Shown here piece after piece: positions 1 through 61,002 of a DNA stretch of 64,000 bases. The position numbers and the translations under genes are program-made. This stretch comes from Actinoplanes sichuanensis (GTDB lineage: Bacteria; Actinomycetota; Actinomycetes; Mycobacteriales; Micromonosporaceae). The stretch is taken from positions 4,216,001-4,280,000 of the forward strand of contig NZ_AP028461.1 in the NCBI RefSeq assembly GCF_033097365.1, read 5' to 3'. How positions within the stretch are numbered: the stretch's first letter is position 1; each line of letters opens with the position of its first letter. The notes under the pieces were generated by a model. That model saw nothing but the letters and a program-made list of their open reading frames with translations, made no database searches and had not been told where the DNA came from.

Positions 1-756
1 GACGACCACGTCTCCAGGCGCCCACTGATGGCCATAGAGGTAGCGGTCGCTGGTCGTGTGTTTCAGTAGCCTGTCCAGCAGGTCGTCGCTCTCGTGCTGG
101 TTAAGGCCGACGATGCTCTTGACCACCATCGAGCCGAGCAGCAAGGACCGGGCGCCGGTGACCGGGTGCACTGGGGCGAGTGGATGTGTGACCTCGGGCC
201 GGCCTGCGAGCGTTCCGGCTGCCGACGATGACCGGCCTCCCGTAGCCGCCGCTTGCTGTGCGCTGAGTTGCTGAATGGAGTGGACGGCCCGCAGGCTCCC
301 GATTCGGTCTCTTAAGTCTGCGGGGAGGTCGGCATGGGCTTGAGTGGCGTCGGTGAAGCGAGTTTCGCCGCCGTGGGTAGGTGTGATCACCGAGTACAGC
401 AGGGTCGCCAGGGTCAGGCGCGGCTTGAAGGAGTTGTCCGCGTGCCACTCCTCTTCCTGGTCGCCGTCGTAGATGCCGATGCGGGTGCCGTCCTCGACGA
501 TGTTGGAGATCGTGGTGATCCCGGGAAAGCCGCTGACCGCGTAGCGGCGGTCGACATCGGTATCGACCGTGCCGAACAGGCTGGCTGCAGCCAGTAGGTC
601 AGCGTGATTGAGGTGCTGTTCAGGGAAGATGAGAACCCGGAATCGGTGCAGAGCGGCAGTGAGGGCGCTGGCCATTGCGAAGGCTTCGGTGCGACTGAGG
701 TCGTGGTTGACCTGGGCTCCGAAGCTGCCGGCCAGCGGGCTGATCGAAAGTTCCAT
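1..756 (-). CDS. TauD/TfdA-family 2-oxoglutarate dioxygenase (3' end outside window)
   Basis: An open frame begins at ATG 756 behind a CAGGAG ribosome site and runs off the left edge (252 codons seen). It is a TauD/TfdA-type Fe(II)/2-oxoglutarate oxygenase: the first two iron ligands lie in WHADNSF (H105, D107), followed by HGGETRF (128-134), HPVTGARSLL (197-206) and WAPGDVVV (245-252). The distal His and the 2-oxoglutarate-binding Arg should lie beyond the edge. Family members hydroxylate, desaturate or cleave small amino acids, amines and sulfonates in the cytosol. The gene is 37 bases downstream of the aaRS-like gene on the same strand, so both are probably one transcript diverging from the repeat-peptide operon. 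The substrate is unknown; an amino acid used by the neighbouring ligase, or the peptide itself, is my inference. Confidence 0.85.
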   Translation of the reverse strand, partial: MELSISPLAGSFGAQVNHDLSRTEAFAMASALTAALHRFRVLIFPEQHLNHADLLAAASLFGTVDTDVDRRYAVSGFPGITTISNIVEDGTRIGIYDGDQEEEWHADNSFKPRLTLATLLYSVITPTHGGETRFTDATQAHADLPADLRDRIGSLRAVHSIQQLSAQQAAATGGRSSSAAGTLAGRPEVTHPLAPVHPVTGARSLLLGSMVVKSIVGLNQHESDDLLDRLLKHTTSDRYLYGHQWAPGDVVV

Positions 757-793
757 GTGGCGCTGCTCCTGAACGGTCAGGTGGGGCGGCGGA

Positions 794-1681
794 CTAGAAC
801 TGGGTGGATTGCAGGAAGGGGCTGATGTCGCGAGTGCCTGACGCCGCCGCACAGAGCCGCTCGATGCCGATCCCTAGGCCGACGCTGTTGGCCGGGACTC
901 GGCCGGCGTCGATTGCTTTCCAAGCCAGACGTTGTTCGTCGTCATACAGGCGGACGGCTTGCGCCCGCTCGATGAATGCTGCGCCGTCGGGTTCGTCCTC
1001 GTAGCCGTGCACGACCTCGATGCCGTCGATGAGGATCTCGAACCGGTTGAGGACGGCGGTGGTGCCGGGTGTGAGTCGTGCGCAGGGCTCGTCACCCCCG
1101 AGGGGGTAGTCAGTGAGCAGCACCGCGGCACCGCGGCTGCGTGTCTCCAGTTCCAGTTCGACGAATTGACCTAGGACGTCTTTGAACGGGGTGGCAGCGT
1201 CGGCGTGCAGATGTGTGGCCATCCGCTGCGGGAGGTCTCCGAGCGGTGACCTGCGTAGGTCGACGCCGAACACGTCCTGCACGTGTTGAGCGACGGAAAC
1301 CCTCTGCAGCGGGTAGCGCAGGTGTTGGCCGATCAGCTGCTCGGCCAACGTGATCAGGTACTCGAAACTCTCGCCGGCGGCGTACAGGTCGAGCATGCTG
1401 AACTCGCTCGCGTGCAGGTCGTCGGGTTTGTCGAGCCGGAAGCATGGTCCGATCTCGTACACGCGGGTGTGGTGTTCGAGGTTCACGCGCAGTGCGGGCC
1501 CGATCATGGCGCGCAGGAAGCGATCGCCGTGCAGTGTGACCGGCGCCCGACGCCCGGTGCCTAGGTCGGCACGCCGAGCCACGGGGGTAACAACCTGCAC
1601 GAAGCCGCTGCTGTGCAGGGTCTGGTGAAGGTGGAGCAGCACCTCGGATTTGACACGGATCGGGTCATGCGGCCTGGACAT
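794..1681 (-). CDS. Stand-alone class II LysRS/EpmA-like aminoacyl ligase
   Basis: 295 residues, about the size of EpmA (GenX/PoxA) and lacking the N-terminal anticodon-binding domain of lysyl-tRNA synthetase. Motif 2 is VYEIGPCFR (74-82, R82) followed by HASEFSMLDLY (90-100), matching the HNPEFTMLEWY region of LysRS/EpmA. Motif 3 is GLGIGIERL (268-276, R275). The substrate-recognition segment RFEILIDGIEVVHGYED keeps the Glu of GxELxNGF but has His for Asn. The family adenylates an amino acid; EpmA then transfers beta-lysine to a Lys side chain of EF-P. An AAGGAGA ribosome site 5 bases before ATG 1681 supports the start. Divergence from the repeat-peptide gene suggests (inference) that it acylates the peptide's Lys or makes an activated amino acid. 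It could instead be a tRNA-independent amide synthetase for a small molecule. Confidence 0.8.
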   Translation of the reverse strand: MSRPHDPIRVKSEVLLHLHQTLHSSGFVQVVTPVARRADLGTGRRAPVTLHGDRFLRAMIGPALRVNLEHHTRVYEIGPCFRLDKPDDLHASEFSMLDLYAAGESFEYLITLAEQLIGQHLRYPLQRVSVAQHVQDVFGVDLRRSPLGDLPQRMATHLHADAATPFKDVLGQFVELELETRSRGAAVLLTDYPLGGDEPCARLTPGTTAVLNRFEILIDGIEVVHGYEDEPDGAAFIERAQAVRLYDDEQRLAWKAIDAGRVPANSVGLGIGIERLCAAASGTRDISPFLQSTQF

Positions 1682-1876
1682 GCGGCTCTCCTTGGTTGGG
1701 GTTGGGCCCGCAGGAAGACGCGTTCGGGCCGGCGAGCAGCTGGGTGCCGCCGGATGTCCACACGCTAGCCGCGGGACCGAGCCCGGCAGTAGGCCCGGGC
1801 ATGGCCGCCGCGCGGCCGTTGGGGGCTGCTACCGACCAGACTGGATCGCATTCCCGCAGGTCAGTGCATGGCGGCG

Positions 1877-1930
1877 CGCAACGGTACGCAACACTGCGGC
1901 GCGTTTGGCGCAACGCTTCAAGCCGTTGCG
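1877..1930. promoter_or_regulatory. Candidate operator in the divergent promoter region (three CGCAACG boxes)
   Basis: The 429-base gap between the leftward ligase and the rightward peptide gene must carry both promoters. Inside it CGCAACG occurs at 1877-1883 and 1909-1915 and its inverse CGTTGCG at 1924-1930. The last two form an 8-base-spaced palindrome, and the first two are 32 bases apart (about three helical turns). This looks like a binding site for a cluster regulator, perhaps the TPR regulator at 10465-11787, but nothing in the sequence proves which protein binds. I saw no clear -35/-10 pair elsewhere in the gap. Confidence 0.35.
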
Positions 1931-2110
1931 GCCCCATCTGGCAGCGCCCTAGCGTGATGCTCCAGCCACCCGATGCGATCGATGTCCCGCCTCAATGAGG
2001 CTGCTCAGCGATGCCGGGTGGCCCCCGAGCCCGGCGTTCTGCCGCGACTCGGCAGCACCTCCCATCCAGTCACTGCGGCCCACCGTGCCGCACGAACGAG
2101 GGAGCACCAC

Positions 2111-2347
2111 ATGACCACCATGCCCAAGGCCGGGATGCGGCCCGATGCCGGGCTGAAGGCCGGGATGCGGCCCGATGCCGGGCTGAAGGCCGGGATGCGG
2201 CCCGATGCCGGGCTGAAGGCCGGGATGCGGCCCGATGCCGGGCTGAAGGCCGGGATGCGGCCCGATGCCGGGCTGAAGGCCGGGATGCGGCCCGATGCCG
2301 GGCTGAAGGCCGGGATGCGGCCCGATGCCGGGCTGAAGGCCGCCTGA
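2111..2347 (+). CDS. Multicore repeat peptide, putative RiPP precursor (7 x KAGMRPDAGL)
   Basis: A 78-residue frame: MTTMP, seven perfect copies of KAGMRPDAGL, then KAA and stop. GGAG at 2101-2104 sits 6 bases before ATG 2111, the best ribosome site of any frame through the repeat. It is the first gene of the rightward operon and is followed by oxidative and guanidine-modifying enzymes, as expected of a RiPP precursor. It is unusual in having essentially no leader peptide. Each repeat holds one Lys, one Arg, one Met, one Pro and one Asp. A LysRS/EpmA-like ligase could act on Lys; amidinotransferase and deiminase-fold enzymes could act on Lys or Arg (inference). Because 30 is divisible by 3, all six frames are open across the repeat, so coding in this frame rests on the ribosome site, position and Lys/Arg logic. 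Confidence 0.7.
   Translation: MTTMPKAGMRPDAGLKAGMRPDAGLKAGMRPDAGLKAGMRPDAGLKAGMRPDAGLKAGMRPDAGLKAGMRPDAGLKAA
2126..2335 (+). repeat. Perfect 30-bp tandem repeat, seven copies
   Basis: Seven copies of a 30-bp unit with no mismatch, beginning aaggccgggatgcgg and ending cccgatgccgggctg, plus a partial eighth unit (aaggccg) at 2336. The absence of even synonymous change implies very recent expansion or strong homogenisation by recombination or slippage. The array encodes the decapeptide repeats of the gene at 2111-2347. Copy number may differ between strains, and short-read assembly could have collapsed it. Confidence 0.97.
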
Positions 2348-2486
2348 TCCACCCTCGATGATCGCCCGTCCTATCCCAGGCATGCCCGGTGCTGTTGCAG
2401 CAGTCCGCGGTGGCCAGGCACAGCCGGGATGGGACGCGGCGCAGCTCGCACCGGAGAGTTCGTGCTATCTGCTGGGGAGAATCTTG

Positions 2487-3548
2487 ATGGTCAGCGTCAC
2501 CTCATCGGCTAAGGGAACGCCGTCACGAGGCAGAACGCGCAACGGAACGGGTGCATCGGGGCCGGTGCGCAAGGCGCTCGGCGCCGATCTCATCGGTCGT
2601 CTGGAGCGGTTGTGCGGACGGCCGACGGTCGGGCTGTTCGACGTCGCTCAGGACATCGTCGCGGTGGCGGTGACCGCGGTGGCAGGCAGCGTCCTCGGTC
2701 ATGTGGTCGGTCCGATGCTGGCGGTCTGTTACATCGGAGTACGGCAGCGGCACCTGTCGAACCTGGCCCACGAGTGCGTTCATTCCAAACTCATGGCCAC
2801 CCGTCGCAGCAACCGTGTCGTGGGCTACCTGCTGACAGGACTGCTCGGCGAGGGTTTCCTGCCCTACCGCAGCAGCCATTACGTGCACCACGCCAAGCTG
2901 GGTTCCGACGGTGATCCGATGTTCCAGTCGTACCGGGCCGGCAACATCCACGCCGCGGCACCGTCGCCGAGCCGGTGGTCGTTCATCTGGCGGGTCATCG
3001 TGCGTAACGCGATCTGGCGGTTGCCGAAGACGGCGGCACTGACGCTGGTCAGCAAGGACTCGGAGGAGACGTGGCGTGCCCCCGCGGCACGTGGCGCGCT
3101 GTGGGTCAGCGCCGCGACGGTGTCCTGGTCTTTCGGCGTGGCGGTCGATTTCCTGCTCTACTGGCTGATCCCGTTGATCTTCGTTCGGCCCGTGGTCACG
3201 TGGATCACGGATCTGGGCAACCACGCCGGGCTGATCGAAAACAGCGACCCGCTGCTACAGACCCGGGGCTGGTCGTCGCATCCGCTCACGCGGCACCTGC
3301 TCGGCGGTCACCTCGACGACATGTACCACCCGGTGCACCACTGGTGTCCGCAGATTCCCTGGCGCCGGCTTCCCGAAGCCGCGGATCTGGCTGCACGCCA
3401 CCTGGATCGGTGGAGTGAGGTGCCATGGTGCTCGGGCTACTTCTTCCGGCGCCGGTCCACCCCTGACCAGCCGTGCGTGATCGAGGACATCATCAACCGC
3501 CTCGCTGAACCCGCCGTGACGCCGCGCTCCTGCCGCATCGCCGGCTGA
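2487..3548 (+). CDS. Membrane fatty-acid-desaturase-like di-iron oxygenase
   Basis: The frame opens earlier (2358), but GGGGAG at 2474-2479 placed 7 bases before ATG 2487 fixes the start, giving 353 residues. The three histidine boxes of the membrane FA desaturase/hydroxylase family are present: HECVH (95-99), HYVHH (131-135) and HPVHH (281-285), with an extra NHAGL at 245-249. Hydrophobic segments near 55-85, 205-240 and around 112-125 fit a membrane protein with cytosolic iron site. The family inserts double bonds or hydroxyls into lipids, and some members act on carrier- or peptide-bound substrates. It lies 139 bases after the repeat peptide, with no obvious terminator between. A short inverted repeat (CCGACCG 3566-3572 / CGGTCGG 3587-3593) follows the gene. 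Substrate unknown: a lipid tail for the product or the peptide are both possible. Confidence 0.85.
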   Translation: MVSVTSSAKGTPSRGRTRNGTGASGPVRKALGADLIGRLERLCGRPTVGLFDVAQDIVAVAVTAVAGSVLGHVVGPMLAVCYIGVRQRHLSNLAHECVHSKLMATRRSNRVVGYLLTGLLGEGFLPYRSSHYVHHAKLGSDGDPMFQSYRAGNIHAAAPSPSRWSFIWRVIVRNAIWRLPKTAALTLVSKDSEETWRAPAARGALWVSAATVSWSFGVAVDFLLYWLIPLIFVRPVVTWITDLGNHAGLIENSDPLLQTRGWSSHPLTRHLLGGHLDDMYHPVHHWCPQIPWRRLPEAADLAARHLDRWSEVPWCSGYFFRRRSTPDQPCVIEDIINRLAEPAVTPRSCRIAG

Positions 3549-3656
3549 ACTCACCCACCCATCGCCCGACCGGTAAGCACGCCGTTCGGTCGGCACCTGC
3601 TGCTCAGGCACCGGACGAGCAACGATGCCGGCCCGCCGTCGAGGAGGCAATCGCCT

Positions 3657-4778
3657 ATGAAGCAGAACCCGCCCGCGAACAGCTACGACGAATGGTCACG
3701 CCTGCGTGAAGTCGTCGTCGGTCGCGCGGACCACTACACCGAGCACCACACCGATTCCTCCTGGATGCTGTTCTACTTCGAGAATGTGGCCCCGGTTCTC
3801 GGCGACACCGCCGCAGAGCGTGATCTGCTGTCCATCCCGGCGCAACTGGTCGACGAGCTCAACGAGGACATCGCCGGTCTGGTGGACACCCTCACCGGAT
3901 GCGGGGTAACCGTCCTGCGGCCGGCAGCTCCCGGCAAGGACGTCGACATCCGCAGCCCGTACTGGGATGCCCGCGCTACGCCGCCGCTCAACGTCCGTGA
4001 TCAGAGCATCGTCCTGGGCAAGACGATCGTCGAGACCGCCCCGCACATCCGCGCCCGCCTGTTCGAGAATGACCTGCTCAAACCGATTTTCTACCGCTAC
4101 TACGAGCAGGGCGGCAACTGGCTGAGCATGCCCCGGCCCGCCCTGGCCGCAGGCTCCCTCGACGACGCCTATTTCCGGCGCCGCGGCGTCGATGTATCCA
4201 CCGCCACCAGCGCCGAGACCGCCCAGCCTATCGACGGTCTCGGCCTGGAGATGGTCTTCGACGGCGCGCAGTGCATCCGGCTGGGCCGCGATGTGCTGGT
4301 CAACGTCGCCAACACCAATCACGACCTGGCGTTGCGGTGGCTGCGCGACAACTTCCCACAGCTGTGCTTCCACCGGCTCGACGCGATGGCCGACAACCAC
4401 ATCGACAGCATCATCGTGCCGTTGCGGCCAGGTCTGATGATGCTGCGTTCACCGCAGTACCTGCCCTACCTGCCGCAAGCACTGCGCTCGTGGGATGTCA
4501 TCTATCCGCCGCCGATGTCCGGGCCCGAACCCGACTACGGCGACTTCGGGTTCGTCATCCCGACCGCCAGCCGCTACATCGACATCAACGTGTTGTCGAT
4601 CGACGAGACCACCGTCGTCGTCAATTCCCACTACCCCGAGTTGATCCGGGTGCTGGAGCAGCGCGGCTTCACCGTGGCGCCGGTGCGTCACCGGCATCGC
4701 CGGCTGTTCGGCGGCGGCTTCCACTGCTTCACCCTCGACACCGTCCGCGACGGCGGCTGCGAGGACTACCTGACCTGA
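3657..4778 (+). CDS. Amidinotransferase (glycine/inosamine-phosphate amidinotransferase family)
   Basis: 373 residues, the usual length of the L-arginine:amine amidinotransferase family (GATM, StrB). The guanidine-modifying fold is recognisable from PYWDARATPPLNVRD (101-115), MVFDGAQCIRLGRD (199-212), the catalytic DNHIDS (246-251, H248 and D250) and the nucleophile in GGGFHCFTLD (C357). All catalytic residues are intact. The reaction moves the amidino group of arginine to a primary amine, leaving ornithine. GAGGAGG at 3640-3646 precedes ATG 3657. In this operon it could guanidinylate a small amine precursor, or the free amine of a lysine or of an amino acid attached to the repeat peptide (inference). 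StrB-like activity in an aminoglycoside pathway is unlikely since no sugar genes are present. Confidence 0.92.
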   Translation: MKQNPPANSYDEWSRLREVVVGRADHYTEHHTDSSWMLFYFENVAPVLGDTAAERDLLSIPAQLVDELNEDIAGLVDTLTGCGVTVLRPAAPGKDVDIRSPYWDARATPPLNVRDQSIVLGKTIVETAPHIRARLFENDLLKPIFYRYYEQGGNWLSMPRPALAAGSLDDAYFRRRGVDVSTATSAETAQPIDGLGLEMVFDGAQCIRLGRDVLVNVANTNHDLALRWLRDNFPQLCFHRLDAMADNHIDSIIVPLRPGLMMLRSPQYLPYLPQALRSWDVIYPPPMSGPEPDYGDFGFVIPTASRYIDINVLSIDETTVVVNSHYPELIRVLEQRGFTVAPVRHRHRRLFGGGFHCFTLDTVRDGGCEDYLT

Positions 4779-4856
4779 TCTGGGCAGGCCCGCCCCGGCC
4801 GCCGGTCAGACCGCCGGCCCCATGGATTCGCGCAGCCCGACCGTAAGGAGACCCCC

Positions 4857-6134
4857 GTGACCAACGCCTGGCCCCCGGGCCGCACGTTCTGGACGACCGA
4901 GTTCCCCGAACGCACCAACGACCGCACCACGCCGTTCCTGTTCAAAGGCATCGTGCCGCCCGCAGCGGCGATCGCCGACGACGTACTCGACGGATTCGCC
5001 GTGATCCGCCACGCACACACCGCCGACACCGGCATTTCGGCGCACGCCCGCGTCTACGTCGGTGAGGAGCGGCGCGACGACCTGCTGGACCGGGTACTCG
5101 CCGCCCCCGCCTGGACCGACGGCGGTTTCGTCACCTGGATGCAGGAGTTAGTCGCCGCCGAGCGGTTCAGCGTGGTCATCAACAACCTGGAAACCATCAG
5201 CCCGGCCCTGGCCGCCGGCCTGGGCCACCTGCTCGCCTCGCTGTTCGACGGGTGGGGCGTGCCACTGGGCGGCGCGGAACTGGTGGCGTTCGCCGGCAAC
5301 TACAGCGGCACCGCTTTCGGGGTCCACGAAGGCTACGAGGACGCCTTCCTGACCCACTACGGTCCGGGCGTCAAGCACTTCTACACCTGGTCGAACGAGG
5401 AGTACCAGAAGCTCACCGGCGGCCAGGACCCTCTTTACGGCGACTACCTGTGGTTGCTCGATCACGCCAAGCACTTCGTCCTCGAGCCTGGCGACGCCCT
5501 GTTCCTACCCCGGCGGGTCTTCCACGTCGGACGCCAGGACGAATTCTCGGTGTCCATCGCCATGCCGCTCTACACCTACCCGGACGCGGCGATCCTGCGC
5601 GCAGCCGTCCTGCCCGACCTGCTGGAGGCCCACCTGACCGGCGGACCAGACACCGAGCTGGGCCAGCCCTCACCGATGACTGAGTTCACCGCGGGGACCA
5701 CGCCGGTCACCCGGCGACTAACCGCTCTGGCCACCCGGACGCTCAACAGCGCCGGCCGGCACGCTGAACGGGCCGTCGAACGGCACCTGCGGCAGCGGTG
5801 GAACACCCTGCTCAGCAACGGCGGCTGGGAGATGGTGCAAGACGACCTGGCCCGCGCCGAGGCAGCCACCGCGTTCGACCCCAACCAGGTCACGGCCGGC
5901 GCCACCGTCGCCGTGACCGCCCCCTACCGGCTGATCGTCGACGGCGACCAGGCGTTCCTACGCGGATGCGAGATCACCACGGACCCCGACGTGCTCACCC
6001 CCGAGCTGGTCACAGCCGTCAACACCGCGCCGCTCACCCTGCCCGCCGACGACAACGTCCTGACCGCCGTCCGTGCGCTCGGCGCCACCGGCGGCCTGAC
6101 CGCGACCCCTGCACCGAAGGAGACCTCAGCATGA
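4857..6134 (+). CDS. JmjC/cupin-like protein
   Basis: 425 residues from GTG 4857, behind AAGGAG. The middle part resembles bacterial JmjC/cupin_8 oxygenases: FAGNYSGTAFGVHEGYEDAF (145-164), a long strand region ending in FVLEPGDALFLPRRVFHVG (207-225, H223) and a C-terminal mostly helical region (about 260-400) with RRW-type basic patch. In typical JmjC proteins the iron motif is HxD/E; here the aligned triplet is H157-E158-G159 with E161/D162 close by, so metal binding or 2-oxoglutarate hydroxylation is not assured. Bacterial relatives such as YcfD hydroxylate a ribosomal-protein arginine, which makes a peptide Arg a reasonable substrate here (inference). The stop overlaps the next start by four bases (ATGA), so the two products are translationally coupled and probably act together. 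Confidence 0.7.
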   Translation: MTNAWPPGRTFWTTEFPERTNDRTTPFLFKGIVPPAAAIADDVLDGFAVIRHAHTADTGISAHARVYVGEERRDDLLDRVLAAPAWTDGGFVTWMQELVAAERFSVVINNLETISPALAAGLGHLLASLFDGWGVPLGGAELVAFAGNYSGTAFGVHEGYEDAFLTHYGPGVKHFYTWSNEEYQKLTGGQDPLYGDYLWLLDHAKHFVLEPGDALFLPRRVFHVGRQDEFSVSIAMPLYTYPDAAILRAAVLPDLLEAHLTGGPDTELGQPSPMTEFTAGTTPVTRRLTALATRTLNSAGRHAERAVERHLRQRWNTLLSNGGWEMVQDDLARAEAATAFDPNQVTAGATVAVTAPYRLIVDGDQAFLRGCEITTDPDVLTPELVTAVNTAPLTLPADDNVLTAVRALGATGGLTATPAPKETSA

Positions 6135-6976
6135 TCACGCTCACCACGCCCGCCACCTTCTCGCTGGTCGACGGCTACCTCGACGACCATCCCGACACCC
6201 GTCGCTACCTGCACGCCACCCTTCTCGGCGAGCAGACCTCCGGCAACGATCTGGTCGACCAGCACCTCGCCCCGATGATCGATGCCGTGTATCGGCAGAT
6301 CCGCGACCTGGTCGACCCGGACACGCTCACCGCAGCCCAGGCGCGGATGTACATCGCCGAGCTGGCCGTCTTCGCCCGCTACAACGCCCAATTCCTCCGG
6401 CTGGCCGCCGACACCGTGGCCGGCTTCTCCCCGGAACTGGCCCACGAACTGCGCCGCAACTACCTGGAGGAAGGTGGCGAACGCGGCAAGGTCCCCGCCC
6501 ACTACATCCTCTACACCAACGCCCTGCTCAAAGACCTCGACCTGATGGTGAACGGCCACGTCCCCGCAGCGGAGACCGCCACTCTCGTGCTGCTGCACCA
6601 GGTACTGGTCAACTCGCACATGCCCAGCGTGATCGCCGGCGGCTACTACGCCACCGAAGGCGTCGCGATCGCCGAGACCGAGATCCTGCGCGACATCACC
6701 AACCGCTACGGCCAGCTGACCCGCCAGTCCAGCGGCGCCGACCTGCCGGCCCTGGACTACTACTACCGGCTGCACCTCGACGACGACCACGAGGCCGCCC
6801 AGGTCGGCGGTCTGAGCGTGGAGGCCGCCCACATCGAAGGCCTCGCCCAGTTCATCCGCAAGAGCGACCTCTACGGCTTCGACCTGCCGCAAGCCGTCGA
6901 AGGTTTCCTACAGATCCTCACCGCGATGACACACTGGTGGACCCAATTGGCCTACCGTGCGAAGGATCTCAACTGA
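6131..6976 (+). CDS. Haem-oxygenase-like diiron oxygenase (HDO)
   Basis: 281 residues, all-helical, of the iron-containing redox (HDO, PF14518-like) family that includes SznF, UndA and BesC. Likely ligands: E114 in NYLEEGGERG with H124 ten residues later (the same spacing as E215/H225 of SznF), E176 in YYATEG or E182, then H215 and D219/H220 in YYRLHLDDDHE. The usual final HxxxDxxH His is replaced by an adjacent His, which should be checked. The family uses O2 to N-hydroxylate guanidines, cleave C-C bonds or make alkenes. It overlaps the cupin-like gene by four bases. In SznF an HDO and a cupin domain of one polypeptide hydroxylate and nitrosate an arginine guanidine, so this split pair beside two guanidine enzymes suggests N-oxidation of an arginine or guanidino group (inference). 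Confidence 0.8.
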   Translation: MITLTTPATFSLVDGYLDDHPDTRRYLHATLLGEQTSGNDLVDQHLAPMIDAVYRQIRDLVDPDTLTAAQARMYIAELAVFARYNAQFLRLAADTVAGFSPELAHELRRNYLEEGGERGKVPAHYILYTNALLKDLDLMVNGHVPAAETATLVLLHQVLVNSHMPSVIAGGYYATEGVAIAETEILRDITNRYGQLTRQSSGADLPALDYYYRLHLDDDHEAAQVGGLSVEAAHIEGLAQFIRKSDLYGFDLPQAVEGFLQILTAMTHWWTQLAYRAKDLN

Positions 6977-7401
6977 TGTCCGATACCCGCGCCGACGTCG
7001 ACGTCTGGACCGGCGGCTGCCTCTGCCAGAACATCCGCTTCCAGGTCACCGGCGAACCGGACTACCCCCACGTGTGCTCCTGCCAGCACTGCCAGAAACG
7101 TGGCGGCGGTCCCATGCAGTCCTGGGTCGGCTACCCGCTGGAGGGCCTGCGCTGGATCGGTGACGGCGGCGAGCCGACCTGGTACGACACGTTCCCCGGC
7201 GAAACCAAACGAGGCTTCTGCCCCACATGCGGCAGCCACATCGCCGCCTTCGACTACGGCGACAGCACGATCGGCATCAACCTCACCGCCCTCGACCAGC
7301 AAGACGACCCGCGCTTGGTTCCGGTCAACCAGTCGTTCCGCGGCGACGCGGTGCCGTGGCTCGCCCAGGTGCCCGACACCCAGCACAGCACCACCAGCTG
7401 A
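6976..7401 (+). CDS. GFA-domain zinc protein
   Basis: 141 residues; the ATG at 6976 overlaps the previous TGA by one base, so it is translationally coupled to the diiron gene. It is a complete GFA-family fold (PF04828) with zinc-binding cysteines in GGCLCQNIRF, CSCQHCQK and FCPTCGSHI. The family is named for glutathione-dependent formaldehyde-activating enzyme, but most members have no proven activity, and actinobacteria use mycothiol rather than glutathione. Roles to consider here are thiol-adduct or aldehyde handling (formaldehyde is released by some oxidative demethylations), or a structural zinc protein of the modifying complex. Function inferred only from context. Confidence 0.88.
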   Translation: MSDTRADVDVWTGGCLCQNIRFQVTGEPDYPHVCSCQHCQKRGGGPMQSWVGYPLEGLRWIGDGGEPTWYDTFPGETKRGFCPTCGSHIAAFDYGDSTIGINLTALDQQDDPRLVPVNQSFRGDAVPWLAQVPDTQHSTTS

Positions 7402-7405
7402 ACCA

Positions 7406-7453
7406 CCCGGGGGATGGTAGGCCACAGCCGACGCTGGCCTGCCATCCCCCGGG
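7406..7453 (+). terminator. Strong 19-bp hairpin between GFA and deiminase-like genes
   Basis: Arms cccgggggatggtaggcca (7406-7424) and tggcctgccatcccccggg (7435-7453) pair along 19 bp with one G-U and a 10-base loop. There is no T tract, as is common for actinobacterial terminators. It may end or attenuate the front part of the operon (peptide to GFA), separating it from the deiminase-antiporter-nitroreductase part, or protect the 3' end of the upstream RNA. Confidence 0.75.
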
Positions 7454-7557
7454 AACCGCTGGTGAAGACACCGTGCCGAGCTGCCTCCGCCGTACCACCA
7501 GCCCACCTTTAACAGGGGAACCCGGCCCCGAACCGGCACCACCTGGAGGCACCCACC

Positions 7558-8427
7558 ATGTCCCTCACCGTGCACGCCACCACCGAATACGGAACCCTGC
7601 ACCGTGTTGCGATGCGCTACGCCGGCGACCTCACCCCCGACGTGGACAGCCCCGACATCCACCCCGTCCTCGCCCGGCAGAAAACCACCAGCCGGTGGGC
7701 GCCGTACACGCCGGCGAAGGTCCGCGAACAGCAGCACGCGTTGATCACGGTGCTGCGCGAACGCGGCACCGACGTCGTCCTGCTCGCCGACGCTTCCGGC
7801 TGCACGACCCAGCACTACCCTCGCGACATCGGCTTCGTCATCGACAACGTCCTGTTCGCCGCCCGCCTGAACTCCACCCACCGCCTACCCGAAACCACAG
7901 CCCTCAACGACCCCGCAACAGCAATCCCGACCCCCGCCATGCTTAGCACGGGCACCATCGAGGGCGGCGACGTCATGCTGCACGACCGATGCGTGCTGGT
8001 CGGCTTGAGCGAGGAAACCTCCCGCGACGGCATCACCGCGCTGCAGACCGCCCTCGGTGAGCACCACATCGACCGCGAGGTGGTACCGGTCCAATTCGCC
8101 ACCGGCGGCATCGTCCACCTCGACGACCACTTCAACATCGTCGCCCCGGGCACCGCCCTGATCCACCGCAGCGTGTTCCCCGCCCAGCAGATCAGCTGGT
8201 TCGCCAGCCGCTTCGACCTGATCGACGTCACCGACGAAGAAGCACTCGCCGTACAGGTCAACGTCCTGCCGATCGCCCCCGGCCTCATTGTGGCCACGGA
8301 CGGCAACGACCGCATCACCGCGGAACTGACCGCCCGCGGCATCGAGGTGATCCACGTCGACTACTCCGAAGTGACCCGCATCCCCGGCTCACTGCGCTGC
8401 ACCACCCTGCCGCTGCTGCGCACCTGA
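7558..8427 (+). CDS. Arginine-deiminase/dimethylargininase-like guanidine hydrolase
   Basis: 289 residues of the guanidine-modifying superfamily (arginine deiminase, DDAH). Signature pieces are YPRDIGFV (88-95, D90), IEGGDVML (134-141, E135), HLDDHFNIV (187-195, catalytic H187 and D189) and the nucleophile in GSLRCTTLPL (C281). All catalytic positions are filled. The family turns a guanidine into a urea (citrulline plus ammonia or amine). The ribosome site ggaggcacccacc precedes ATG 7558. Having both an amidinotransferase and a guanidine hydrolase in one operon points to guanidine chemistry at the heart of the product: one may make and one trim it, or this enzyme may act on the repeat Arg or recycle arginine-derived by-products (inference). 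Confidence 0.88.
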   Translation: MSLTVHATTEYGTLHRVAMRYAGDLTPDVDSPDIHPVLARQKTTSRWAPYTPAKVREQQHALITVLRERGTDVVLLADASGCTTQHYPRDIGFVIDNVLFAARLNSTHRLPETTALNDPATAIPTPAMLSTGTIEGGDVMLHDRCVLVGLSEETSRDGITALQTALGEHHIDREVVPVQFATGGIVHLDDHFNIVAPGTALIHRSVFPAQQISWFASRFDLIDVTDEEALAVQVNVLPIAPGLIVATDGNDRITAELTARGIEVIHVDYSEVTRIPGSLRCTTLPLLRT

Positions 8428-8534
8428 GAGTGCGCGCCGACATCACCGCAGGCGTCGCAGCCGCCGACCGATCGCCCGACACCGCGGCCTGCCGCTGCTC
8501 GACGACGCAACCACCCGTGCCTCTGGGAGGTCTC

Positions 8535-9815
8535 GTGCTGCCCACACATCCGATGCTGTCCGTACTGCTTGCCGTGCCGGCCGTGATGCTGGCCTGCCAC
8601 GCCGGGGGCTGGGCCCTCCGCCGACTCGGCCAACCAGCCGTCATCGGCGAAATCCTCGCCGGCATCATGCTCGGCCCCACCCTGCTCGGCTGGCTCGCCC
8701 CCGACCTGCAACACCACCTGCTGCCGCCCACCGCACTGCCGATCCTCTCGGCGCTGGGCACCCTCGCGCTGCTGACCTTCCTCTTTCTGATCGGCGCCGA
8801 ACTCGACCTGAGCGCTCTACGCGACGCCAAATCCGCCGTCATCAGCGTCAGCCTCACCAGCGTCCTGGCACCACTGGCCCTCGGCGCCGGACTCGCCTGG
8901 GCGATGTACCCGCACCTGGCCCCGGACAGTGTCGGCCGGCTGCCATTCATTCTGTTCATCGCCGTGGCATTGAGCATCACCGCGTTCCCCGTGCTCGCCC
9001 GCATCCTGGCAGACCGAGGCCTAGAGAACACCCACCTCGGCGCCTTCGTCATGGCCTGCGCCGCAGCCAACGACGCGATCGCCTGGTGCCTGCTCACCGC
9101 CGTCATCGCCCTGGTCGTCACCGCCACCCCGCTGGCGGCCCTCACCGCGGCTGGCTTGACCGCGGCCCTAGCAACCACGCTCATCCTGCTTCGCCCGCTG
9201 CTGCACAAGCTGCTCAACCGTGCGGCCCGCACCTCCGACGACCTTGTCCTGGTCATGATGTGCGCCGGACTGTTGCTCACTGCCTACGCCACCGACCGCA
9301 TCGGCGTACACCCGGCGCTCGGCGCGTTCCTGTTCGGCGCGAACATCCCGCGCGGACTTCCGTCCATCGAGCGCAGCACCGCTCGTCTCCGCGCCGTGTT
9401 CGTTCCCGTGCTGCTGCCCCTCTATTTCGCCGACATCGGCCTGCATACCAACCTCGTTGACGTGCCGTCCGGACAATGGGGCTGGGCTCTGGCCATCGTC
9501 TGCGTCGCCGTCCTCGGCAAGTGGGGCGGTGCGGCCGCCGCCGCCCGACTCACCGGAGCCGACTGGCGACGCGCCGCAGCCATCGGCACCCTCATGAATT
9601 GCCGCGGCGTGACCGAACTCGTCGTACTCGGCATCGGACGCCAGATCGGCATCATCACCCCCGACCTGTTCAGCCTCCTGGTCCTCATGACCGTCGTGAC
9701 CACCGCCGCCACCAGCCCCGTTCTCAGCCGCCTCGGCGACGAGATCGCAGCACCACACCGACCGCAACCCCATCGCGGAATCCGCTCTATGGCCCGCAAC
9801 ACCCGGAAGGGGTAA
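8535..9815 (+). CDS. CPA2-type cation/proton antiporter (Na_H_exchanger family)
   Basis: The frame is open from 8430, but GGGAGG at 8525-8530 places the start at GTG 8535, giving 426 residues with about 12 membrane helices and little soluble tail. Family features include GQPAVIGEILAGIMLGP near the N-terminus, the ALSITAFPVLARIL segment and AACAANDAIAWCLL with the acidic pair region (ND) used for ion exchange, then a C-terminal MNCRGVTELVVL motif. No regulatory TrkA domain follows. Antiporters of this type occur in natural-product clusters (for example next to enediyne and polyketide genes) where they are assumed to export or confer resistance. It is the only transporter in the island, so it may move the mature product or protect the cell from it (inference). 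Confidence 0.88.
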   Translation: MLPTHPMLSVLLAVPAVMLACHAGGWALRRLGQPAVIGEILAGIMLGPTLLGWLAPDLQHHLLPPTALPILSALGTLALLTFLFLIGAELDLSALRDAKSAVISVSLTSVLAPLALGAGLAWAMYPHLAPDSVGRLPFILFIAVALSITAFPVLARILADRGLENTHLGAFVMACAAANDAIAWCLLTAVIALVVTATPLAALTAAGLTAALATTLILLRPLLHKLLNRAARTSDDLVLVMMCAGLLLTAYATDRIGVHPALGAFLFGANIPRGLPSIERSTARLRAVFVPVLLPLYFADIGLHTNLVDVPSGQWGWALAIVCVAVLGKWGGAAAAARLTGADWRRAAAIGTLMNCRGVTELVVLGIGRQIGIITPDLFSLLVLMTVVTTAATSPVLSRLGDEIAAPHRPQPHRGIRSMARNTRKG

Positions 9816-9817
9816 CG

Positions 9818-10390
9818 ATGACGGCTGACCCGGTCCTCGAAGCGATCCTCACCCGCCGCAGTTGTGTACGGCTCACCGGCCCGGCCCCGGACCGCGACGA
9901 TCTGATCGACCTCATCCAGGCCTCAGCCACCGCACCAGATCACGGCCTGATCCGTCCATGGCGCCTGATCATCCTGGAAGGCGACGACCGACAGGTCCTG
10001 GGTAAGGCGATGCGTGACGCTGCAGCAGACCCCGAACAAGGCGACCGTGCCGCCACCAGGCCGCTGCGAGCTCCCCTGTTGCTGTCGATCGTCTTCTGCC
10101 CCGAACGCGACCACCCGACCGTACGAGAGTGGGAACAGTTGGCGGCGGTGGCAGGGATGGCGCAGACCCTCCAAATCCTCCTACACAGCCGAGGGTGGGG
10201 CACCATATGGCGCACCGGATCCATCGTCGAGGCACCCCAGGTCCGCGAATACCTCGAACTCACCGCGACTGAACAGCTTCTCGGCTGGCTGTACATCGGT
10301 ACCTCGCCAACGGGTGCGCCCATCCCCGTGCGCAAGCCCGTCGATGTCGTTTCTCGAATCAGCCGGCCCCGCCACGCCGCGCGGGTATGA
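9818..10390 (+). CDS. Nitroreductase-family flavoprotein
   Basis: 190 residues starting at ATG 9818, two bases after the antiporter stop and behind ggaagggg, so same transcript. N-terminal ILTRRSCVRL and SATAPDHGLIRPWRLIIL match the FMN-binding start and dimer face of the nitroreductase family (YdjA-like short subgroup), and the C-terminal GWLYIGT fits the last strand. These enzymes use FMN and NAD(P)H to reduce nitro or nitroso groups, quinones, or to oxidise heterocycles in RiPP maturation. If the HDO/cupin pair makes an N-oxidised or N-nitroso group, a nitroreductase could reduce it or give self-protection; this is inference. Last gene of the rightward operon. Confidence 0.82.
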   Translation: MTADPVLEAILTRRSCVRLTGPAPDRDDLIDLIQASATAPDHGLIRPWRLIILEGDDRQVLGKAMRDAAADPEQGDRAATRPLRAPLLLSIVFCPERDHPTVREWEQLAAVAGMAQTLQILLHSRGWGTIWRTGSIVEAPQVREYLELTATEQLLGWLYIGTSPTGAPIPVRKPVDVVSRISRPRHAARV

Positions 10391-10464
10391 CGCAAGGTGA
10401 GATCGGTGACATGCTGCAAGCCGTGATGTGAGGACTAGGGATCACTCGGCGAGAAGCCCGAGAC

Positions 10465-11787
10465 TCAGAAGTCGTGTAGTTGCTGGCCTTCGGCAGCGCG
10501 GGAGAGCCGGTCCGCCAGGCGCCGGCTTTTCAGGTGCCGTGACGCTTCGACCGCGCGCTTCATCAGCACCATGCGCTCACTGTCGTCGCCGCGTAGCCGA
10601 GCGAGCTCCGCGCCGGTAATCAACAACTCGACGTTGTCGCGAGTACGCTCCGCCGGCATGTTGAGGGCGGCGTGCAGGGCGTGGGTTCCCGGTGCTGCCA
10701 GACCTGCCATGGCCAGCGCCCAGGCGGCCTGACTTTCCAGTTCGGGCCGATCGAGCCAGCTAAGCCACCGAGGACCAGCCCCGATGCTGGCACGCTCAAA
10801 TGCCTCTCGTGCCCGTGCCACGGCGACCAGGGTCTGCTCGGGATCGTCGTTCAGCGCCCACGCCCTGGCCTCTGTGACAGCCGCATACGCCCGCACCAAG
10901 GCGGGGGCGCTCGCGGCCGCGAAGACCGCGCTGCGGGCATGAGTGAGGACATCCGACCGGGCATCCTGTGCGGCAGCAAGTCGGGCTTGATGGATATAAC
11001 CGCGAGCCAGCCGGCCCCGGTCACCTATCGCCTGCGCCATCCGGATCGCTTGCAAGTCGTAACGCATAGCCAGGCCGGGAAGCTGATCGTCGTAGGCCAT
11101 GCTCGCTAAAGCCAGAACAGCGTCGGCGACGCTGCCGTAGAGCCATTGACCTCGCCGAGCCGAGAACGCTCCATGCAGGAGCGGTGTCGCATGCGTGTCC
11201 AGAAACGCCGCGAAAACCCCCCGGAACCGGCCCCCGCCATGGCGCGCATCCTGTCGCCCGTACAGATCGGTGTGAGCCTCCAGCAGCTCGATATCAGCCT
11301 CCAGCACCCGGCGATGCCCGTGTCCTTGTGTGCTGGCGTCGGGACCCATGACGAGAGCCTGATGAAGAACCGGCGCGTGCGTGTCACCGAAAGACATCTT
11401 CCGAACAGCCATCCGCCCGGACACGGAGTCGAGTTGCCACAGCTTCGGAAGAACCCTGACGGCATGGCGAAGGTCTTCGTACCTCAGAGCGTCAGCGGCG
11501 ACGTCCATTTCTTCGCTCGGCCATCCCAAGCTCTCCGGGCTAATCCGCCGGCGCATTGCGGCTGACAACACGAAGCACGCCGGGTCCGCCAGGTCGGGGC
11601 CGGGGACCGCGTTGTCGCACCATCGCGAAACTGTGCTGGTACTCACCGCTCGCGGCGTGCCGTTTACCAGGCAGCGCTCCCGAATCCTTTGAGCGAACCC
11701 TGAGACCGACCAGTTGAGCTCGACCAGCAGGGCGCACAGGGCGTCGTTGCGACTGTTCCCGCTCGATTGCCGGGCGCGTTGCATCAC
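10465..11787 (-). CDS. XRE/TPR-type transcriptional regulator
   Basis: 440 residues, converging on the nitroreductase gene. The N-terminal 75 residues contain a helix-turn-helix-like stretch (FAQRIRERCLVNGTPRAVST then TVSRWCDNAVPGP), and the rest (about 110-440) is helical with Ala-rich TPR-like pairs. This architecture is common in actinomycete pleiotropic regulators of the NsdA/BldD-neighbour type. Its place at the end of the island suggests it controls the divergent promoter, but there is no direct evidence. The start could be either of the two adjacent ATGs. After the nitroreductase stop only 74 bases separate the two genes, with no clear hairpin. Confidence 0.75.
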   Translation of the reverse strand: MMQRARQSSGNSRNDALCALLVELNWSVSGFAQRIRERCLVNGTPRAVSTSTVSRWCDNAVPGPDLADPACFVLSAAMRRRISPESLGWPSEEMDVAADALRYEDLRHAVRVLPKLWQLDSVSGRMAVRKMSFGDTHAPVLHQALVMGPDASTQGHGHRRVLEADIELLEAHTDLYGRQDARHGGGRFRGVFAAFLDTHATPLLHGAFSARRGQWLYGSVADAVLALASMAYDDQLPGLAMRYDLQAIRMAQAIGDRGRLARGYIHQARLAAAQDARSDVLTHARSAVFAAASAPALVRAYAAVTEARAWALNDDPEQTLVAVARAREAFERASIGAGPRWLSWLDRPELESQAAWALAMAGLAAPGTHALHAALNMPAERTRDNVELLITGAELARLRGDDSERMVLMKRAVEASRHLKSRRLADRLSRAAEGQQLHDF

Positions 11788-58893: not shown

Positions 58894-61002
58894 ATGGCGA
58901 CTTCCAGGGTCAACCCGACCGACACCGATACCCAGGAGGCCCTCCTGCGGCAGGCGGAAGACGATCGGGGAAAGGTGGCCGCCCTCAACCGCTCCCAGGC
59001 GGTGATCGAGTTCGACCTGACGGGCACGATCCTGGACGTCAACGAGAAATTTCTCGCGACCATGGGCTACACCCGTGAAGAGGTGATCGGGCAGCACCAC
59101 CGGATGTTCATGCCGGAGCGGGAGGCGCACGGCGCCGAGTACCGCGAGTTCTGGCGGGCGCTCGGGGCCGGCGAGTTCCAGGGCGGGGTGTACCCGCGGC
59201 TGGCCAAGAACGGCCGGCAGGTGTGGCTGCGCGCGACGTACAACCCGATCCTCGGCACCGACGGCAAGCCGGTGAAGGTGGTCAAGTTCGCCACCGACAT
59301 CACCGCCGACCGGCAGCGCACCGCCGAGTTCGAGGGTAAGATCGCGGCGGTGAGCCGGTCCCGGGCGCTGATCGAGTTCGACCTGGACGGCACGATCCTG
59401 GACGCGAACCAGAACTTCCTCGACACGATGGGCTACACCCTCGACGAGGTCGTCGGCCGGCACCACCGGATGTTCATGCCGCCGGGCACCACCGACCAGC
59501 CCGATTACGTCGAGTTCTGGAAGAAGCTGACCCGCGGCGAGTTCTCCTCCGGCGAGTTCAAGCGGATGGCCAAGGGCGGCCGGGAGGTGTGGCTGCTGGC
59601 CTCGTACAACCCGGTGCTCGGCGCGGACGGCAAGCCGTTCAAGGTGTTCAAGTTCGCCGCGGACATCACCGAGGAGCAACATCGGACCGCCGAGTTCGAG
59701 GGCAAGGTGGCCGCGATCAGCCGGTCGCAGGCGGTCATCGAGTTCGACCTGGACGGCACGATCCGTACCGCGAACCAGAACTTCCTCGACACCACCGGTT
59801 ACACCCTCGACGAGATCGTCGGACACCACCACCGGATGTTCGTCGACCCGGTCGAGGCCTCCGGAGCGGCGTACCAGCTGCTCTGGGAACGGCTTGCCCG
59901 TGGTGAGTTCCAGGGTGGGGAATACCGGCGCATCACCAAGAACGGCGAGGACGTGTGGCTGCAGGCCACCTACAACCCGATCCTGGACGCCGACGGACGG
60001 CCGGCCAAGGTGATCAAGTTCGCCATCGACGTCACGGCCGCCAAGCAGCGCACCGCCGAGTTCGAGGGCAAGGACACCGCGATCAGCCTCGCCCAGGCGG
60101 TCATCGAGTTCGACCTGGACGGCAACATCCTCGCCGCCAACGACAACTTCCAGCGGACCGTGGGCTACACCGCACGGGAGCTGATCGGGCAGCATCACTC
60201 GACGCTGTGCCCGCCGGACTACATCGTCTCGCCCGAGTACCGCGACTTCTGGCACCGGCTGGCGGCCGGCGAGATCCACAGCGGCCGATTCCACCGGGTC
60301 GGCAAGTACGGCCGGGAGGTGTGGATCCGGGCCAGCTACATCCCGATCCGGGACCTGCACGACAAGGTCTACAAGGTCGTCAAGTACGCGTACGACATCA
60401 CCGACCAGGTCGTGCTGGAGCATCAACTGGCTACCAAGACCCGCGACATGAAGACGTCGGTGACCGCGCTGACCGCGGCGATCGACGAGATCACCGCGGC
60501 CGCCACGCAGGCGACCACGCTGGCCGACACCACCCACCACAACGCGCAGGAGGGGTACGAGGAGCTGCGCAAGTCGATCGACGCGATCGACCTGATCCAG
60601 AAGTCGTCGGAGCAGATCGCGGCGATCGTCACGGTGATCGGGGAGATCGCGGGCCAGACCAACCTGCTCGCCTTCAACGCCTCGATCGAGGCCGCCCGCG
60701 CCGGCGAGCACGGCATCGGCTTCTCCGTCGTCGCCGGTGAGGTCCGCAAGCTCGCCGAGCGGTCCTCGGCCGCGGCCCGGGAGATCACCCAGCTGATCCA
60801 CGAGTCGGCGAGCCGGGTGAGCCAGGGCGCGACGGTCAGCCAGCGGGCGCAGAGCTCCTTCGGACACATCCTGTCCAACGTCGCCGAGACGAGCGACACG
60901 ATCCGCCGGATCGCGGCTTCGACCGAGGAGCAGCAGACGGTGTCGCACCAGGTCGCCGAGCTCATCAACGAGCTGGTCAACAGCAACAGCGACCACTCGT
61001 GA
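58894..61002 (+). CDS. Soluble chemoreceptor with four tandem PAS domains
   Basis: ATG 58894 behind agcggagag gives 702 residues. Four PAS units of about 122 residues (about 25-150, 148-272, 270-394, 392-515) share the blocks [24 protein letters not shown](M/V) and REVW...YNP(I/V)LG and are clearly tandem duplicates. Then a methyl-accepting signalling domain with the hairpin tip [20 protein letters not shown] and [20 protein letters not shown]. There is no membrane segment, so it is cytosolic. The tip is intact for CheA/CheW binding. The PAS units may bind flavin or haem (aerotaxis-like), but no ligand residue is decisive. The next gene, a triple CheW, overlaps by four bases. Confidence 0.94.

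Follow-up and report, generated by a model that had tools for sequence, protein, structure and literature searches.

The window analysed here is a stretch of 64,000 nucleotides from Actinoplanes sichuanensis (GCF_033097365.1, NZ_AP028461.1, positions 4,216,001-4,280,000, forward strand), and near its left end lies a gene cluster that contains a small tandem-repeat peptide gene. The open reading frame (ORF) at 2111-2347 on the plus strand translates to a peptide of 78 amino acids, MTTMP-(KAGMRPDAGL)7-KAA, and Tandem Repeats Finder (TRF) places the underlying DNA array at 2126-2342 on the same strand, with seven perfect 30-base units plus a partial one (period 30, 7.2 copies, 100% matches). Translation and TRF thus bear out an earlier note on this DNA, which had described a 78-residue peptide of seven identical KAGMRPDAGL units. 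All seven units are identical at the DNA level, and no second copy of the 30-base unit was found in the 12.14 Mb genome, allowing up to 3 mismatches.

Downstream on the plus strand lie genes for an FA_desaturase-fold hydroxylase related to GntB (2487-3548; Pfam FA_desaturase), an amidinotransferase (3657-4778), a JmjC_2 protein with the architecture of YcfD-type ribosomal oxygenases (4857-6134; 24 bits against a Pfam cut-off of 22), a heme-oxygenase-like diiron oxidase (HDO) of the DUF3865 family (6131-6976; Pfam and fold comparison), a GFA family zinc protein (6976-7401; Pfam) and an arginine deiminase/DDAH-like hydrolase (7558-8427; Pfam). The JmjC and HDO genes overlap as ATGA and the HDO and GFA genes as TGATG. 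The amidinotransferase has no Pfam match and was assigned to its family through its PDB relatives StrB, HsvA, SxtG and AGAT (phmmer, 1bwd, E 6.8e-43). A cation:proton antiporter of the Na/H exchanger family (8430-9815) and a nitroreductase family protein (9818-10390), both on the plus strand and identified by Pfam, are accessory, as cluster comparison does not find them in every cluster. Further right, a putative regulator on the minus strand (10465-11787) stands at the border of many actinobacterial clusters, as judged by tblastn conservation; it has no Pfam match, and its relatives are annotated as "transcriptional regulator."

To the left of the array, on the minus strand, are a LysRS/EpmA-like class II ligase without an anticodon domain (794-1681; Pfam tRNA-synt_2, with profile matches to the LysRS and EpmA structures 3g1z and 3a5z) and a TauD-like 2-oxoglutarate (2OG) dioxygenase. 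The latter occupies 1-756, is cut by the window start and is complete in locus L008 (15839-16756); its best NCBIfam matches, PtlD (E 8.4e-39) and taurine dioxygenase (E 5.5e-36), are both below cut-off. The TauD gene beside the LysRS-like gene is conserved across actinobacterial clusters. Left of TauD, outside the window, is the gene for an AlkC-type DNA glycosylase (L008 14718-15842, minus strand), which overlaps the TauD gene by ATGA. The gene list given earlier is upheld, except that the protein called cupin-like there is a JmjC_2 protein of YcfD architecture. No YcaO gene lies near the cluster (three are present in the genome, the nearest at C1:4601996, about 384 kb from the cluster at about 4218126; TfuA was not searched by itself), and the window proteins scanned include no other maturase family of ribosomally synthesized and posttranslationally modified peptides (RiPPs). 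Far from the cluster, at 58978-60171, TRF reports a 366-base tandem repeat of 3.3 copies and 75% matches.

Co-occurrence of the array with the JmjC and HDO genes

The unit has the form K-x-G-[MVI]-R-P-[DG] and occurs in 4 to 10 copies per array at a spacing of 8 to 12 residues, five false upstream segments having been dropped. With K-x-G as the anchor, all but two of the 212 occurrences (210) go on with x-R-P; with RP as the anchor, K and G are present in 210 of 212, and the other two, both in L020, have Gln for Lys. Between units of the same array, the Gly, Arg and Pro codons show 227, 239 and 261 synonymous differences and zero amino acid changes, although the constancy of these residues is partly built in, since their positions belonged to the search pattern. 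The Lys position has 22 synonymous differences and 4 amino acid differences, while the free position x has 19 and 311, respectively. At the fourth position, Met prevails in Streptomyces-type clusters, and Nocardia, Xenorhabdus, Parvularcula and Nostoc mostly have Val or Ile there. Exceptions are L041, a locus on a Streptomyces plasmid, with Val, Gln and Glu, and L025 and L032, with a single Leu and a single Ala, respectively. The L020 array provides a natural experiment on which residue matters, with Gln replacing Lys in two of its four units and G-M-R-P-D kept.

The description of the units as identical is true of the window array and, within the seven-residue core, of the Nostoc carneum array (L038), but elsewhere position x varies. 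Among the distinct arrays compared, only these two have cores that are DNA identical throughout, which points to recent homogenization. In the Nostoc carneum array (L038 7429-7602), the four identical-core units are followed by a frameshift within the next unit and an unrelated tail. The first unit is preceded by 3 to 24 residues in 34 of the 37 distinct arrays, and the other 3 have no assigned ATG. There is no separate N-terminal leader peptide, and the precursor is almost leaderless.

A protein search with the repeat peptide returned no relatives, and one with the HDO returned 189 at an E value of 0.001 (120 listed). A scan of genome contigs with an HDO alignment gave 24 loci, and PLSDB held 12 plasmids with an HDO relative (ten from Streptomyces and two from Nostoc); with the window, one remnant from the same genus and three further loci, these form a table of 41 HDO loci. 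A repeat array is present in 38 of them, in Streptomyces, Kitasatospora, Amycolatopsis, Nocardia, Xenorhabdus, a Parvularcula metagenome-assembled genome (MAG) and Nostoc plasmids, and the arrays number 37 distinct ones, as L039 and L078 share the same array. Both JmjC and HDO occur in all 38 array loci. GFA was matched in 37, three of them interrupted, the exception being L029, which ends at a contig end; the LysRS-like ligase was likewise found in 37, being absent from L038 and in two pieces in L024. It is the JmjC gene that tracks the array best (38/38 array loci versus 0/3 loci without an array), GFA and HDO doing so less strictly. The arrays of L025, L031, L034 and L016 were confirmed when whole genomes were searched with a repeat peptide.

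The three loci without an array differ from each other. L012, from a genome of the same genus (G020), is a cluster remnant with a broken HDO fragment containing an internal TGA beside a GFA gene, and the repeat-peptide search of this genome was empty, though it lacked a positive control. L036, from an Acidimicrobiales MAG, has a split HDO match and GFA. L033, from an Acidobacteriota MAG, has no array, JmjC or GFA gene and combines the HDO and the LysRS-like ligase with a homologue of Orn/Arg-type pyridoxal phosphate-dependent decarboxylases and a PhyH oxygenase; the repeat peptide gave one 24% match in this genome (E 0.0034), with the motif absent. Since L033 has both the HDO and the ligase without array, JmjC or GFA, these two enzymes are not exclusive to the peptide system, and the pair in L033 may have another, peptide-free role.

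The same association was seen in 375 genomes of one family. The HDO was found in 6 of these; the repeat-peptide query matched 17, of which 6 have arrays of at least two K-x-G-h-R-P units, and they are the same six genomes. Of the 11 others matched, 9 were readable and none had a K-x-G-h-R-P unit. Under random placement, and ignoring shared ancestry, the six-with-six coincidence has a P value of 2.7e-13, but three of the six genomes are apparently those of L013, L014 and L020, so that the test is not wholly independent of the contig scan. The cluster is rare, being present in 2 of 396 genomes of the phylum with its own genome counted, and, within the genus, in its own genome plus one remnant among 67 genomes. 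The earlier note had proposed a new RiPP family with a leaderless, multicore precursor and had named related clusters that keep the enzymes and lack the repeat ORF as the finding that would speak against it. All 38 loci that combine JmjC with HDO have the array, as do all six HDO-positive genomes of the 375, which supports a new RiPP-type family whose multiunit precursor is almost leaderless. The interpretation in the note is supported in part; its further proposals, that Lys and Arg are both modified and that a single small product is released, are possibilities. As in RiPPs generally, a ribosomally encoded precursor gene is conserved together with tailoring enzymes.

Shared core and lineage-specific genes

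The shared core consists of the array, JmjC, HDO and GFA, nearly always with the LysRS/EpmA-like ligase. The position of the array varies, being upstream of the FA_desaturase-fold gene, upstream of JmjC or downstream of HDO, and it is within the JmjC/HDO cluster in every case (38/38). The enzyme set named in the earlier note is present in the window, but much of it belongs to an actinobacterial outer layer, and what the lineages share is smaller. The genes added in actinobacteria encode a GntB-like hydroxylase, an amidinotransferase, a deiminase-like protein, TauD and the AlkC glycosylase; every one of the 33 actinobacterial array loci has the FA_desaturase-fold and amidinotransferase genes, and the 5 others have neither. 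AlkC was present in 30 of these 33 and not seen in L024, L028 and L029. Of the genes included in the comparison, those present in Xenorhabdus bovienii and X. budapestensis are array, JmjC, HDO, GFA and ligase together with a LysE-exporter/solute-binding protein. In Parvularcula and Nostoc commune there are, in addition, genes for an Orn/Arg-type decarboxylase and for a protein resembling 2OG oxygenases, the latter below Pfam cut-offs in Nostoc. Nostoc carneum (L038) combines array, JmjC, HDO and GFA with genes for a glutamine amidotransferase, the glycosylase Tag and an adenylation-carrier-reductase protein. This suggests that the core converts the peptide into an oxidized basic amino acid unit, which is then tailored in its own way in each lineage; a small basic product would fit the presence of LysE, of the decarboxylase and of the amidinotransferase alike.

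Some clusters have further peculiarities. Next to the Xenorhabdus clusters, one gene encodes a LysE-type exporter domain and a solute-binding domain in a single fused protein (L031 5567-7177 by Pfam; L032 5007-6608 by tblastn). An extra gene related to the S-adenosylmethionine-dependent methyltransferase gene of L040 is found in L013, L014, L018, L019, L021, L035, L040, L041, L073 and L081-L083; the window is without it. In the Nocardia draft L025 (15660-16971), the AlkC gene is spread over two overlapping frames, through a frameshift or a sequencing error. The similarity of gfa breaks at the same base in L023 (~10920), L080 (~7920) and L084 (~7920), and integrase/recombinase genes follow the break in L080 and L084, which suggests a site-specific element targeting gfa; the first bases of the insertion in L023 look alike.

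A proposed pathway and its competitors

The JmjC protein matches the YcfD arginyl hydroxylase over its whole length and has the ROX fold at about 14% identity. In contrast to YcfD/ROX oxygenases, it lies in a biosynthetic cluster and does not have the HxD...H iron triad: H157-x-G159 replaces HxD in 16 of 16 alignment rows, while the distal H223 is kept and the four other JmjC_2 proteins of the genome have HWD. In the family alignment, H157-x3-E161...H223 is invariant. The HDO has the helical HDO fold and the conserved Glu/Asp/His set of metal ligands, and its nearest folds among characterized HDOs are HrmI, CADD and BesC. The ligase is of the LysRS/EpmA-like class II type and not MetRS-like, and EpmA/genX is its best NCBIfam match at 76.4 bits, far from the cut-off of 286.9. 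Similarly, the FA_desaturase-fold protein scores 112.4 bits against GntB, the L-Arg gamma-hydroxylase of the guanitoxin pathway and its best family match, with a cut-off of 380, and is not an equivalog.

We consider it probable that the cluster encodes a new RiPP-type pathway in which the repeat ORF is a nearly leaderless multiunit precursor, oxidized on its units and yielding a genotoxic product. Each K-x-G-[MVI]-R-P-[DG] unit would be recognition site and core together, and the translationally coupled JmjC, HDO and GFA enzymes would act on it. The JmjC protein, as a paralogue of a protein-arginine hydroxylase, and the HDO may oxidize the Lys and/or Arg side chain; we propose this for the HDO because its characterized relatives either take Arg as a substrate or act on Lys, by N-oxygenation or fragmentation. 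A reactive by-product, either a one-carbon compound or an aldehyde, could be dealt with by GFA. Cleavage of the chain by host peptidases, as proposed for thiovarsolins, might then yield a small basic amino acid or short peptide in several copies, and the released unit would be tailored by the ligase, the amidinotransferase, the GntB-like and TauD oxygenases and the deiminase. The end product would be a small molecule that alkylates DNA, and the producer would protect itself from it by base excision through AlkC or, in Nostoc carneum, Tag.

A different role for the peptide is that of a carrier. EpmA charges a Lys of EF-P, and the ligase here could likewise load a free amino acid onto each unit's Lys side chain, where the oxidases would act on it before its release, the repeats serving as a multisite scaffold that is not consumed. 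The likeness lies in a class II LysRS-like ligase without an anticodon domain by a possible Lys-bearing protein substrate; EpmA/genX is the closest NCBIfam family, the ligase profile matches EpmA structures, and Lys is present in 210 of 212 units with position x free. The score is, however, under the EpmA cut-off, the substrate would be a repeat peptide and the partners differ. The link between ligase and array is also not strict (L038 has an array without ligase and L033 a ligase without array), the JmjC gene follows the array more closely, and the two L020 units without Lys still keep G-M-R-P. We regard the carrier role as unlikely and favor direct modification of the units followed by host proteolysis and tailoring, because of the thiovarsolin precedent and because the ligase is less array linked than JmjC.

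By analogy to PyrN/Spb40-type hydrazine synthetases, which likewise combine a Lys-oxidizing enzyme, an aminoacyl-tRNA synthetase-like ligase and a cupin-type protein (PMC8664883), the peptide may instead template N-N bond formation and give ribosomally encoded genotoxin precursors, a scheme that we put forward as a doubtful one. The HDO, whose nearest characterized fold is the Lys N6-oxygenase HrmI, would N-hydroxylate Lys in every unit, the resulting hydroxylamine would be esterified with an amino acid by the LysRS-like ligase, and the JmjC-fold protein, without the triad Asp, would act as a cupin-type rearrangement enzyme to give a peptide hydrazine; further oxidation and proteolysis could then release a small diazonium- or hydrazine-type DNA alkylator, accounting for AlkC and Tag. 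This scheme is prompted by the combination of an HrmI-like HDO, a synthetase-like ligase and a cupin-type H-x3-E...H protein, as in PyrN-type enzymes. The H-x3-E...H set is what the Zn cupins of PyrN/Spb40 use, and the JmjC protein has H157-x3-E161...H223, a sequence pattern that might form such a metal site. Against the scheme weighs that the ligase here is of another class, the PyrN/Spb40-type ligase being MetRS-like. The substrates of the PyrN/Spb40-type enzymes are free amino acids, and in the accessible part of that report their N-hydroxylase is not named an HDO (PMC8664883).

A BesD/BesC-like route, in which the HxG JmjC protein would halogenate or radical-activate Lys, the HDO would fragment it as BesC does 4-chlorolysine and GFA would remove formaldehyde, is in our view quite improbable. 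HxG is a mark of halogenases, BesC releases formaldehyde, and the HxG pattern of the JmjC protein, the place of BesC among the nearest HDO folds and the coupling of GFA to HDO are all consistent with such a route; yet the invariant E161 could stand in for the missing Asp as a metal ligand, and a formaldehyde activity for GFA comes from the family name alone. Finally, slippage can create perfect DNA repeats such as the window units and the L038 cores, but that the ORF is a leader/attenuator or a hitchhiking structural repeat and not a biosynthetic substrate is very unlikely, given that the protein is conserved across three phyla with synonymous DNA change and 4 to 10 copies, and that none of the 38 array loci has it outside the JmjC/HDO cluster even though gene order differs.

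Product, precedents and significance

The AlkC-type protein is similar over its full length to characterized AlkC, C-terminal part included (5vi0, E 5.9e-49, residues 21-388 of 391), and scores 19.3 bits with Pfam DNA_alkylation, below the cut-off of 21. In the titles of cited references, AlkC and AlkD are termed 3-methyladenine glycosylases and Tag is termed 3-methyladenine-DNA glycosylase I. As judged from these sequence relationships, AlkC and Tag suggest a DNA-alkylating product, and a small DNA alkylator is our best guess because two different glycosylases for the same kind of lesion occur in two lineages of one cluster. A base-excision enzyme inside a genotoxin biosynthetic cluster is also found in YtkR2, AlkZ and TxnU self-resistance, whereas those clusters, in the portions of the reports available, use YtkR2/AlkD-type, AlkZ-type and TxnU/LldU enzymes, with AlkC serving there as a comparison enzyme.

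The closest precedent is that of the thiovarsolins from the var cluster of Streptomyces varsoviensis, which shares an imperfect-repeat precursor, a heme-oxygenase-like VarO acting on Arg and an amidinotransferase gene (PMC6511847). According to the accessible sections of that report, the precursor has up to five repeats, VarO dehydrogenates Arg, release is ascribed to endogenous peptidases and deletion of the amidinotransferase gene left production unaffected (PMC6511847). The same sections also set the two systems apart: thiovarsolins need YcaO and TfuA, whereas the cluster here has no nearby YcaO; their core is APR, and the K-x-G-h-R-P-D unit contains neither APR nor GPR; VarA has a predicted leader; and JmjC, LysRS-like, GFA, GntB-like and AlkC partners are not named there (PMC6511847). 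The mangotoxin MboA pathway is alike in having an HDO that acts on a Leu/Ala/Arg tripeptide and an arginine deiminase related to amidinotransferases, but, in the excerpts available, its peptide is made nonribosomally by ATP-grasp ligases and has no repeats (PMC13185094). No description of the array or of the gene set was found in the literature searched, which did not cover closed literature. The earlier statement that no described class has this set therefore holds for that literature, with the qualification that thiovarsolins already join a repeating precursor, an HDO and an amidinotransferase.

In conclusion, the system is RiPP-like in logic and new in its precursor, enzymes and distribution. 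The K-x-G-h-R-P-D motif with JmjC and HDO is a simple handle for genome mining, and the class spans three phyla (Actinomycetota, Pseudomonadota and Cyanobacteriota) and is also carried on plasmids. It links a YcfD-like oxygenase and an EpmA-like ligase, from families known for modification of the translation machinery, to natural-product biosynthesis. If the product does alkylate DNA, a ribosomal peptide would be the source of a small genotoxin, and the repair enzyme in the cluster would be built-in evidence of its target.

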